A stretch of 64,000 nucleotides of DNA from Bacillus sp. HSf4 (lineage in GTDB: Bacteria > Bacillota > Bacilli > Bacillales > Bacillaceae): the NCBI RefSeq assembly GCF_029537375.1, contig NZ_CP120679.1, positions 1,662,001 to 1,726,000 on the forward strand, given 5' to 3'. Positions 20,430 to 60,909 of the stretch are shown here, one piece after another (the first letter of the stretch is position 1; each line of letters opens with the position of its first letter). The notes beneath the pieces were generated by a model that worked only from the letters and a program-made list of their open reading frames with translations, had not been told where the DNA came from and searched no databases. The position numbers and the translations under genes were made by a program.

Positions 20430-20442
20430 CACGGTTCATTTT

Positions 20443-20474
20443 AAAAAAATCCCCGCAGAAAAAACCCTGCGGGG
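20443..20474 (-). terminator. csfG terminator
   Basis: On the minus strand, CCCCGCAG and CTGCGGGG form an 8-bp stem followed by T7. In the plus direction the tract after the stem is poor, so it chiefly serves the minus strand. Confidence 0.85.
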
Positions 20475-20591
20475 TCCTTCTATTCCTTAAAGATTTAAGG
20501 AGAAGGCAAAGGGAGAGGAGAAACCGGAGGAAGAACTTATGGGGAAACGTAAGTCTTCTCCGCGGTTGGCAACAACATCAATCGATGCTGT
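20443..20591 (-). ncRNA. csfG: csfG-like forespore small RNA
   Basis: A minus-strand unit of about 149 nt: a sigma-F/G-type promoter (20598-20627), an ORF-free body, and a terminator (CCCCGCAG / CTGCGGGG then T7). The body has several pyrimidine-rich stretches such as TTCCTCC and TCTCCTCTCCC, complementary to Shine-Dalgarno sequences. csfG is a published sporulation sRNA located in the ylbG-ylbH interval of spore formers. The strand and ends here are inferred from the promoter and terminator; I could not compare with the published consensus. Confidence 0.7.
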
Positions 20592-59741: not shown

Positions 59742-59750
59742 TGTTAAGAT
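59742..59750 (+). promoter_or_regulatory. extended -10 promoter of the rlmA leader
   Basis: TG (59742-59743), one base, TAAGAT (59745-59750). The -35 position (59722-59727, TTCCAA) is weak. It would give a transcript starting near 59757 that includes the leader ORF and attenuator. Confidence 0.6.
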
Positions 59751-59784
59751 GTCATTGATTTCCCATAAAAGGAGTTTTTCTTTC

Positions 59785-59814
59785 ATGATCATCCAATTCA
59801 TTCGCTATAGATAA
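59785..59814 (+). CDS. 9-aa leader peptide upstream of rlmA
   Basis: ATG to TAA encoding MIIQFIRYR, with AAAAGGAG 10 bases before the ATG. It ends in Arg-Tyr-Arg directly before the stop. Arg/Lys-X-Arg/Lys motifs are known to cause ribosomes to stall on leader peptides in the presence of macrolides or ketolides (as in ErmDL-type leaders). The end of the ORF overlaps the base of the downstream terminator hairpin. Coding is inferred from the ribosome site, the position and the motif; the peptide is too short for other evidence. Confidence 0.65.
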   Translation: MIIQFIRYR

Positions 59815-59911
59815 ATGCAAGGTATAGACAAACTTAAAGCAAATCCACACCGTCAGGTTTTAAAAACGCTGATGGAGCGGGTTTATTTGTCTATGCCTTT
59901 TTCATTTATCT
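59809..59911 (+). terminator. transcription attenuator before rlmA
   Basis: Core stem GGTATAGACAAA (59821-59832) with TTTGTCTATGCC (59886-59897), then T5. Inside are AAATCC/GGGTTT and CCGTCAG/CTGATGG (59841-59884 region). Outside, AGATAAATG (59809-59817, covering the leader stop codon) pairs with CATTTATCT (59903-59911). The whole element is a ~100-nt hairpin between the leader peptide and the methyltransferase gene. Confidence 0.8.
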
Positions 59912-59938
59912 CCATTTGTGAATGAAAGAGGTGCTGTC

Positions 59939-60826
59939 ATGAATAACAAGATGAGAAGCGCAGTGCTGATGAAGAGGTTTGAAAAAGTGCTTCAATGCCC
60001 GCTCTGCGCTGCGGACATGAAAGTGGCGGGCTTCAAAAGCCTCGCTTGTGTCAATCATCATACATTTGATTTAGCCAAACAAGGATATGTGAATGTTGCG
60101 GCGAATACAAAGGCCGGAAAATATGATCAAGAGCTGTTCGAGGCCCGAAAAATGATAGCTGACAGCGGATTTTTCGAGCCCTTGTATAAAGTGCTGACGA
60201 GCCTACTCAAGCAAGCATTGCCGCTGAGGCAGAAGCCGATCGGGATTCTTGATGCGGGCTGTGGTGAAGGGTCCCATCTGATCAGGATCACAGAAGATCT
60301 TAAAGCCGAGATTGGCGGCAGGGTGTTCGGAGCTGGAATCGATTTGTCAAAAGCGGGGATTTTGACGGCGGCAAGGCGTGATGCCGAACTAATCTGGTTT
60401 GTCGCTGATTTGGCGAACGCTCCTTTTCAGCGCCGATCATTTCATGTGATTTTGAACATTTTATCACCTTCCAACTATGCGGAGTTCAAAAGGCTGATAT
60501 CTGCCGATGGCATGGTGATTAAAGTGATGCCAAAGGCCGGCTATCTGCAGGAATTAAGGGAAGCTTTCTATGATGGGCCGGAAAAGTCCGTTTATTCCAA
60601 TCACGATACGGCCGGTCGCTTCCTCGCGCAATTTGCGCTGATAGACAGGATAGAGCTTTCATACAGCTGCGTCCTGAACCGGGAGGAGCTCAGCCGGCTG
60701 CTCCGGATGACCCCTTTGTCATGGCGCGTAAAGGATGATCGGATTGCGGACTTTTTGAATCGGAACCAAGCCGCTTCGATCACGGTTGATCTCGATGTTT
60801 TAATCGGCGTCAAAAAAGCGGAATAA
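59939..60826 (+). CDS. rlmA: RlmA-type 23S rRNA (guanine-N1)-methyltransferase
   Basis: 295 aa. N-terminal zinc finger with Cys20, Cys23, Cys37 and His41 (CPLC...CVNHH), then a class I SAM domain (ILDAGCGEGSH, 103-113) and NILSPSNYAEF. It matches the RlmA family; the Gram-positive RlmA(II)/TlrB branch methylates G748 in helix 35 at the macrolide (tylosin) site. The B. subtilis member (yxjB) is elsewhere on the chromosome, and ylmB normally sits at this place. ATG 59939 with GAGGTG is chosen over the in-frame start at 59918. Expression is likely controlled by the leader and attenuator upstream. Confidence 0.85.
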   Translation: MNNKMRSAVLMKRFEKVLQCPLCAADMKVAGFKSLACVNHHTFDLAKQGYVNVAANTKAGKYDQELFEARKMIADSGFFEPLYKVLTSLLKQALPLRQKPIGILDAGCGEGSHLIRITEDLKAEIGGRVFGAGIDLSKAGILTAARRDAELIWFVADLANAPFQRRSFHVILNILSPSNYAEFKRLISADGMVIKVMPKAGYLQELREAFYDGPEKSVYSNHDTAGRFLAQFALIDRIELSYSCVLNREELSRLLRMTPLSWRVKDDRIADFLNRNQAASITVDLDVLIGVKKAE

Positions 60827-60834
60827 AAAGGCGG

Positions 60835-60863
60835 AAAGGCAGTCTAAATGAAAGACTGCCTTT
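60835..60863 (+). terminator. rlmA terminator
   Basis: AAAGGCAGTCT / AGACTGCCTTT perfect 11-bp stem, seven-base loop; only a short T-run (TTTCAT). Confidence 0.75.
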
Positions 60864-60909
60864 CATATAATTTTAAAGGATACACGATCAGAGGAGGCGT
60901 GCGGCTTAT

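Follow-up and report, generated by a model that had tools for sequence, protein, structure and literature searches.

A tlrB-type attenuator before rlmA in Bacillus sp. HSf4 and related leader RNAs before other macrolide-resistance genes

Gene content and architecture of the leader

This study focused on a window of 64,000 nt of the Bacillus sp. HSf4 genome (contig NZ_CP120679.1, positions 1,662,001 to 1,726,000), and specifically on an rlmA-type gene that is flanked by ylmA-like and ylmC-like genes and preceded by a compact leader element at 59742-59941 (Table 1). The encoded enzyme has the RlmA fold and zinc ribbon (PF21302, 41.4 bits at a cut-off of 27), matched the solved E. coli RlmA structure 1p91 (E 1.6e-29), and was the only RlmA match when the window's genome was searched with it. 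Among NCBIfam models the G745 type scored best, at 158.7 of the 303 bits of its cut-off, and the G748 model Erm(32) gave 96.1 of 550. The methylation target is probably G748, as drawn from the relationship to YxjB, the sequence itself being unable to decide between this base and G745. A terminator-like hairpin directly behind rlmA (60834-60864) was listed on both strands.

Table 1. Features of the leader element and of rlmA (positions within the window)
Feature	Position	Strand	Basis
Extended -10 promoter, TGtTAAGAT	59742-59750	+	Sequence
Transcription start	~59757	+	Inferred from spacing
Shine-Dalgarno (SD) of leader ORF, AAAAGGAG	59767-59774	+	Sequence; ten bases 5' of leader ORF
SD-sequestering hairpin	59784-59941	+	Predicted fold; consensus of 41 relatives; double changes across gene classes
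Leader ORF, MIIQFIRYR-TAA	59785-59814	+	Sequence; kept in 20/20 same-genus genomes with the enzyme
Leader Tyr8 codon; Arg9 codon	59806-59808; 59809-59811	+	Sequence
Intrinsic terminator, 5' arm, AGGTATAGACAAA	59820-59832	+	Sequence, fold; pairs of lower ten positions conserved
T-rich tract and U-A-U pause positions of the B. subtilis NusG-dependent pause, TTTATTTGTCTAT (putative)	59882-59894	+	Sequence equality with L017
Terminator 3' arm and U-tract, TTTGTCTATGCC TTTTT	59886-59902	+	Sequence, fold; exact 25-nt arm in 35 stretches
Candidate alternative hairpin, GCC + U-tract + CATT with AATGAAAGAGG (rlmA SD)	59895-59933	+	Prediction only
rlmA-type 23S rRNA guanine-N1 methyltransferase gene, 295 aa	59939-60826	+	Pfam, structure match; ATG at 59939

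The promoter call rests on the extended -10 element and on the mapped start of B. subtilis, because the -35 region is poor and a simple promoter scan listed no site at 59742-59750. The core stem of the terminator (59821-59832 with 59886-59897) contains one G-U pair and is directly followed by five T residues (59898-59902); in full, its arms span 59820-59832 and 59886-59898. RNA from 59750 to 59941 folded at -62.1 kcal/mol, whereas shuffled versions averaged -36.2 (sd 3.8), giving a z-score of -6.9, and none of 200 shuffles folded as well. In the predicted structure the region of the leader stop codon (59809-59817) pairs with 59903-59911, followed outward by 59797-59805 with 59918-59926 and by 59784-59793 with 59930-59941, and both the SD (59928-59933) and the start codon of rlmA are paired with leader codons. 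Terminator and SD lock are, in this predicted fold, one nested hairpin. An initial annotation of the locus had placed the extended -10, the leader SD, the MIIQFIRYR reading frame with its stop, the 12-bp terminator stem with its T5 and the rlmA ATG exactly where they lie; the pairing that it gave as the hairpin base (59809-59817 with 59903-59911) is also present but is not the end of the stem, which runs on to the SD and start of rlmA. Rfam covariance models at their gathering scores left the attenuator unmatched, and the only match in the window was the ylbH leader (RF00516, 127 bits, 20441-20565).

Sequence and structure conservation

The window's RlmA was found in 24 of 61 genomes searched, comprising 20 of 37 from the same genus and 4 of 24 others. 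A leader of the form [start]IIQFIR[YF]R stood before the gene in all 20 same-genus genomes (19 with RYR, one with RFR), while no leader ending in RXR was found before the RlmA of the four genomes from other genera (L007, L008, L013 and L018). The exact 25-nt terminator arm occurred in 35 named stretches, with RlmA detected downstream by tblastn in 34 and only an apparent beginning of RlmA in the last (L031). Those rows of alignment A1 (41 relatives) that were found by this exact pattern cannot count for conservation of the arm. The window's genome itself carries one leader, the two further matches being an antisense match at the leader itself and another with an E value of 0.39.

The consensus fold of the 41 relatives contained both the terminator and the SD-sequestering stems. 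Covariation within these Bacillaceae-type rows alone was poor (1 of 27 pairs) because their sequence hardly varies, and it emerged once distant rows were included: in the 50 rows of alignment A3, 91.5% of cells paired and 78 double-changed cells were spread over 19 of 27 pairs, values reached by none of 500 shuffles, with 28-55% of cells pairing in slid versions, although the distant-row alignments (A2 and A3) were fitted to the structure of model R1 (see below) and this fitting leans the pairing and covariation counts.

The enzyme is far less constant than its leader peptide. The window's protein was 42-45% identical to subtilis-type copies, which lie near 3.8-4.0 Mb in single-contig genomes and nonetheless have the same leader peptide, while the licheniformis-type copies examined stand beside ylmA and ylmC. 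Compared with six relatives (L003, L010, L028, L038, L042 and L050), RlmA identity was 54-65%, against 95-97% for YlmC, 81-87% for YlmD and 98% for full-length SigG matches; judged from these identities, rlmA stands out in its cluster as a fast-evolving gene. In L010 and L025 (G024) the rlmA match was in two pieces with an internal TAA, and the gene looks broken behind an intact leader.

Comparison with published drug-stalled leaders

The closest described system is that of B. subtilis yxjB, renamed tlrB, whose leader also reads MIIQFIRYR (Yakhnin et al. 2019 mBio, PMC6851288). According to the text of that paper available here, tylosin stalls the ribosome at RYR, when Tyr occupies the P site and the last Arg the A site, and stalling prevents termination and unmasks the tlrB start, as supported by toeprints, terminator mutants, lacZ fusions and an AYA leader mutant in which induction was lost (PMC6851288). 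Termination depends on NusA, and the regulation requires NusG-dependent pausing; an SD-sequestering hairpin was demonstrated by RNase mapping and fusions, and without tylosin a translational fusion gave at most 1 Miller unit compared with 11-21 for a transcriptional fusion (PMC6851288). The B. subtilis leader has tandem stop codons, and the authors compared 180 leader peptides upstream of tlrB homologues and stated the B. licheniformis peptide to be identical to that of B. subtilis (PMC6851288). The leader, for which the initial annotation could name no earlier description, is therefore already known for B. subtilis, and its B. licheniformis peptide has been named. Locus L017, taken as the B. 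subtilis sequence, agreed with the available text of PMC6851288 at 24 of the 25 residue positions that it states, the misfit being a toeprint base.

The window element and tlrB have in common the 9-residue peptide with C-terminal RYR, the terminator 3' arm, the SD-sequestering hairpin, the pause tract and an RlmA-type gene; the pause tract in the window is putative and matches L017 in sequence. They differ in that the window's gene lies between ylmA and ylmC rather than at the yxjB place, in the absence of a tandem stop (TAA ATG, where B. subtilis has TAA TGA), and in one extra base that separates leader stop and terminator and is also missing from the other 40 rows of A1. The tandem stop was not counted as defining a tlrB attenuator because other relatives vary there too. 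The window element is thus almost certainly the already described tlrB (yxjB) attenuator of the Bacillus licheniformis group, and its value is one of confirmation, in that a published drug sensor was recovered from raw sequence alone. The transcript of L017 opens with GGGGAAACCC, a possible 5'-terminal hairpin, and GGG...CCC pairs were seen by eye at the transcript start of many relatives; the window is without any.

Measured against the B. subtilis work, the core of the initial annotation stands: a ribosome that stalls at Arg-Tyr-Arg over the base of the terminator's 5' arm and switches rlmA on only with the drug is what was shown for the orthologue (PMC6851288). It had recognised stalling and antitermination but missed the translational layer, the SD-sequestering hairpin. 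Of the drugs it had listed for testing, tylosin induces in B. subtilis, while erythromycin gave no induction there at the doses tested (PMC6851288).

Attenuators of the ermD type, the RLR class of erm leaders, likewise combine an R-X-R arrest leader with control of a 23S rRNA methylase. The ermD peptide differs from the tlrB-type peptide, but some Bacillota Erm genes found here carry the tlrB-like RNA itself (see below). Drug-stalled leaders and attenuation before a resistance gene have also been described for mef/mel(msrD) of streptococci (PMC4335068, PMC10314930) and VmlR of B. subtilis (PMC9226507); compared by description only, these have other leader peptides and other protein families than tlrB.

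Related RNAs before other resistance genes

Model R1, built solely from the 41 rlmA leaders of A1, matched 10 of 397 genomes sampled from the order, 57 of 398 from the class and 11 of 398 from the phylum (the samples overlap), and model R2, built from 50 mixed matches, matched 31 of 39 genomes in one family and 11 of 59 in a second. After antisense matches at the same palindromic places were dropped (4 + 4 + 1), 103 distinct sense matches remained, the window's own included, and 99 of these precede a gene of a macrolide-resistance family. RlmA follows in 56 (five matched in part only: L096, L100, L165, L172 and L184), a macrolide esterase in 17, an Mph-like kinase in 13, Erm in nine (L103, L106, L111, L118, L120, L123, L126, L147 and L149), a Mef-like pump in one, and an RlmA displaced downstream in three (L119, L135 and L136). 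Of the other four, L181 is an erm relict by eye, L121 has lost its gene, L173 stands before an O-methyltransferase with a leader start that is not clear, and L150 was rejected as a probable chance match. Some single genomes, such as G445 and G660, contain two or three modules. Rfam scanning of 17 loci from several gene classes returned only a purine riboswitch, elsewhere in L023.

Gene classes were checked with NCBIfam on six representatives, to which other members were assigned by tblastn. Both Erm representatives, at 238 and 248 bits, exceeded the 212 bits of the broad Erm cut-off, and both esterases passed NF052610, macro_16_ester (509 and 463 of 420 bits), while two Mph-like representatives scored 304-315 bits with the MphB and MphC models, below the exception cut-offs. 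Among solved structures, one esterase matched the solved EstT 11tu with 473 bits, and one Mph-like protein matched a solved macrolide 2'-phosphotransferase at E 5.6e-85. The Mef-like pump, in L182 (G427), scored 308.7 bits on MefB at a cut-off of 800; the leader of the related RNA before it seemingly ends in IRLW, not RXR.

Across 76 chosen sense rows from the different classes, again in an alignment fitted to the R1 structure, 1814 of 1952 cells paired (92.9%) and both-side changes occurred at 21 of 27 pairs, whereas only 36-45% of cells paired when the 3' partner was slid; Mph rows fitted worst in the terminator helix. A rival account takes the leaders ending in RXR and the hairpins before the esterase, Mph and Erm genes to be convergent designs. 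In its favour, function dictates leader length and pairing rules, most Mph genes are without the module, another RNA with an MIIKW leader precedes six of nine esterase genes of the order, and the tree is poorly resolved. In this tree, made from the RNA part (100 rows, few columns), a starred branch set the esterase rows apart, and the other classes were mixed. Set against convergence, the model made from rlmA leaders alone matches across all 165 positions, one of the 103 matches being a probable chance one, and primary sequence outside the leader codons, namely GGTTTATTTG and a GTGCC-T-tract, recurs in several gene classes. In addition, erm similarity lies between leader and rlmA in L119 and L136, which points to a leader passed from gene to gene; L135 presumably holds an erm remnant as well, to go by its leader type and displaced rlmA. 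Convergence is accordingly an unlikely account, and shared descent with re-use is probably the simplest reading of the common module. In L118, erm and then rlmA follow one leader, and it is as if, in L118, L119, L135 and L136, erm had passed its leader on to rlmA.

The module does not generally accompany Mph or esterase genes, since in the reverse direction R2 matched at none of the nine loci of the order with an esterase (9 of 199 genomes) and at none of 30 fetched loci with an Mph homologue (present in 39 of 199 genomes). The window genome's own Mph homologue (G000:C1:321295-322182, L195) has no RXR leader in the 230 bases upstream. At six of the nine esterase loci (L185, L186, L190, L191, L192 and L193) a different RNA lies about 120 bases before the gene, unmatched by R2, with a leader MIIKW[IV][RK].. 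and a strong SD; five of these six leaders end in [RK]XR, and the arrangement is suggestive.

In the openly licensed literature no report of tlrB-like RNA before esterase or Mph genes was recognised, and the words "leader" and "attenuat" are absent from the main text of the esterase paper PMC12704417. While the element in the window is known, the shared module is a lead that might be unfamiliar to the specialist. If one RNA module does control methylases, esterases and kinases, macrolide resistance in environmental Bacilli would consist of parallel cis-switches.

Regulatory model

In the absence of drug, the leader peptide would be completed, the ribosome would depart and the transcript would stop at the terminator; on read-through, the long hairpin would form, with leader codons paired to the SD and start codon of rlmA. 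Once tylosin is in the exit tunnel, the ribosome would stall at the point where the P site holds Tyr8 and the A site Arg9. It would cover the mRNA to about 59822 and take away the terminator base together with the 5' half of the hairpin that sequesters the SD, and because both are covered rlmA would be transcribed and translated and G748 of 23S rRNA methylated. A pause of RNA polymerase at TTTATTTGTCTAT would give the leader ribosome time to load. For the window's organism, we infer stalling, termination, sequestration and pausing from the same peptide, the matching parts and the conserved pairing.

A purely transcriptional attenuator, in which the stalled ribosome would only open the terminator and the SD of rlmA would always be free, would fit the presence of the terminator and the position of its base at the edge of the stalled ribosome. 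It was rejected as highly improbable: the predicted fold has both the SD core and the start codon of rlmA in pairs, this pairing is part of the 41-relative consensus and is preserved through double changes, and RNase mapping and fusions show SD sequestration in B. subtilis (PMC6851288). The two Arg codons and one Tyr codon at the end of the leader could instead suggest an amino-acid attenuator that senses arginine or tyrosine shortage. However, codons vary among relatives (Arg7 CGC or CGT; Arg9 AGA, CGG, CGT, CGA, CGC or AGG) while the peptide motif stays constant, the partner genes across classes serve macrolide resistance and not biosynthesis, and tylosin alone was sufficient for induction in B. 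subtilis (PMC6851288). This second alternative, rejected because the codons vary and the peptide stays, is the less probable of the two.

Under the preferred reading, tylosin-dependent stalling with both a terminator and an SD lock, the modelled stalled ribosome takes away the three lowest terminator pairs, which include two G residues whose mutation virtually abolished termination in B. subtilis (PMC6851288). When the ribosome was modelled as a block in equilibrium folding, the SD of rlmA was not freed (mean unpaired probability ≤0.22) in each of the 38 rows examined of the 41 in A1, window included, and it re-paired with the GCC and U-tract of the terminator. In isolation this predicted alternative hairpin had a mean of -11.2 kcal/mol and z -4.3 over the 41 rows, with every row below -1; it is stronger in the window than in tlrB, and at -16.5 kcal/mol the window's is the strongest. 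With a cruder survey window around the SD, and after exclusion of the four relic, unclear or chance loci and of six whose SD was not recognised, z was below -2 at 42 of 54 RlmA, nine of nine Erm and three of three displaced-RlmA loci, compared with just 2 of 14 esterase and none of 13 Mph loci. The alternative hairpin, of which no discussion was found in the available text of PMC6851288, may act as a second lock that is retained in front of enzymes modifying the ribosome. Because tylosin induces translation in B. subtilis, initiating ribosomes must beat it kinetically, or else it only tunes the level of expression.

Leader type, drug range and mobility

Leader type was read at residues eight to six before the stop. 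Leaders of the II[QK] type were found before 41 of 56 RlmA and 16 of 17 esterase genes and before no Erm (n = 9) or Mph (n = 13) gene, while [GC]I leaders preceded 2/56 RlmA, 0/17 esterase, 7/9 Erm and 12/13 Mph genes and all three displaced RlmA genes. The remaining leaders fit neither type or were unreadable, 12 of the 56 RlmA leaders fitting neither. Of the 55 readable RlmA leaders, 33 have Tyr or Phe between the two Arg residues, a feature that no esterase, Erm or Mph leader shows. Erm and Mph have a broader macrolide range than RlmA(II) and the esterases. RlmA(II) protects against tylosin (PMC6851288), and Gram-positive esterases of this family raised resistance to 16-membered but not to 14- or 15-membered macrolides (PMC12704417). 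Taken together, these counts suggest a correspondence between leader type and the drug range of the enzyme. The association is inflated by related rows: independent contrasts numbered one on starred branches and four on the best tree (RNA part without the peptide codons), a tree with few columns on which a sign test cannot reach 0.05.

The widest reading is of a portable macrolide-sensor module on at least four unrelated kinds of enzyme (RlmA, Erm, esterase and Mph), with a leader code for drug range (II[QK] for tylosin and 16-membered macrolides, [GC]I for a broad range) and a second SD lock mainly before ribosome-methylating enzymes; as a whole it is tentative, and the odds are somewhat against it. 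If it is true, natural variants before enzymes of differing drug range could be used to test which nascent-peptide residues select the stalling macrolide, a question raised in PMC6851288.

Spread of the leader to enterics was considered for CP063895.1 (L226), labelled a Klebsiella variicola plasmid and carrying a tlrB leader with a fragmentary rlmA. By eye it reads as sequence of the Bacillus subtilis group in which homopolymer lengths differ and frames are broken, and contamination is the more likely explanation. Outside the window's genome, two plasmids have leader and resistance gene together: that of Bacillus arachidis (NZ_CP127373.1) carries MIIKFIRLR with an esterase, and that of Priestia megaterium (NZ_CP071469.1) carries MIIQFIRYR with RlmA. 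A third plasmid, of Priestia filamentosa (NZ_CP015327.1), has a match to the leader DNA.
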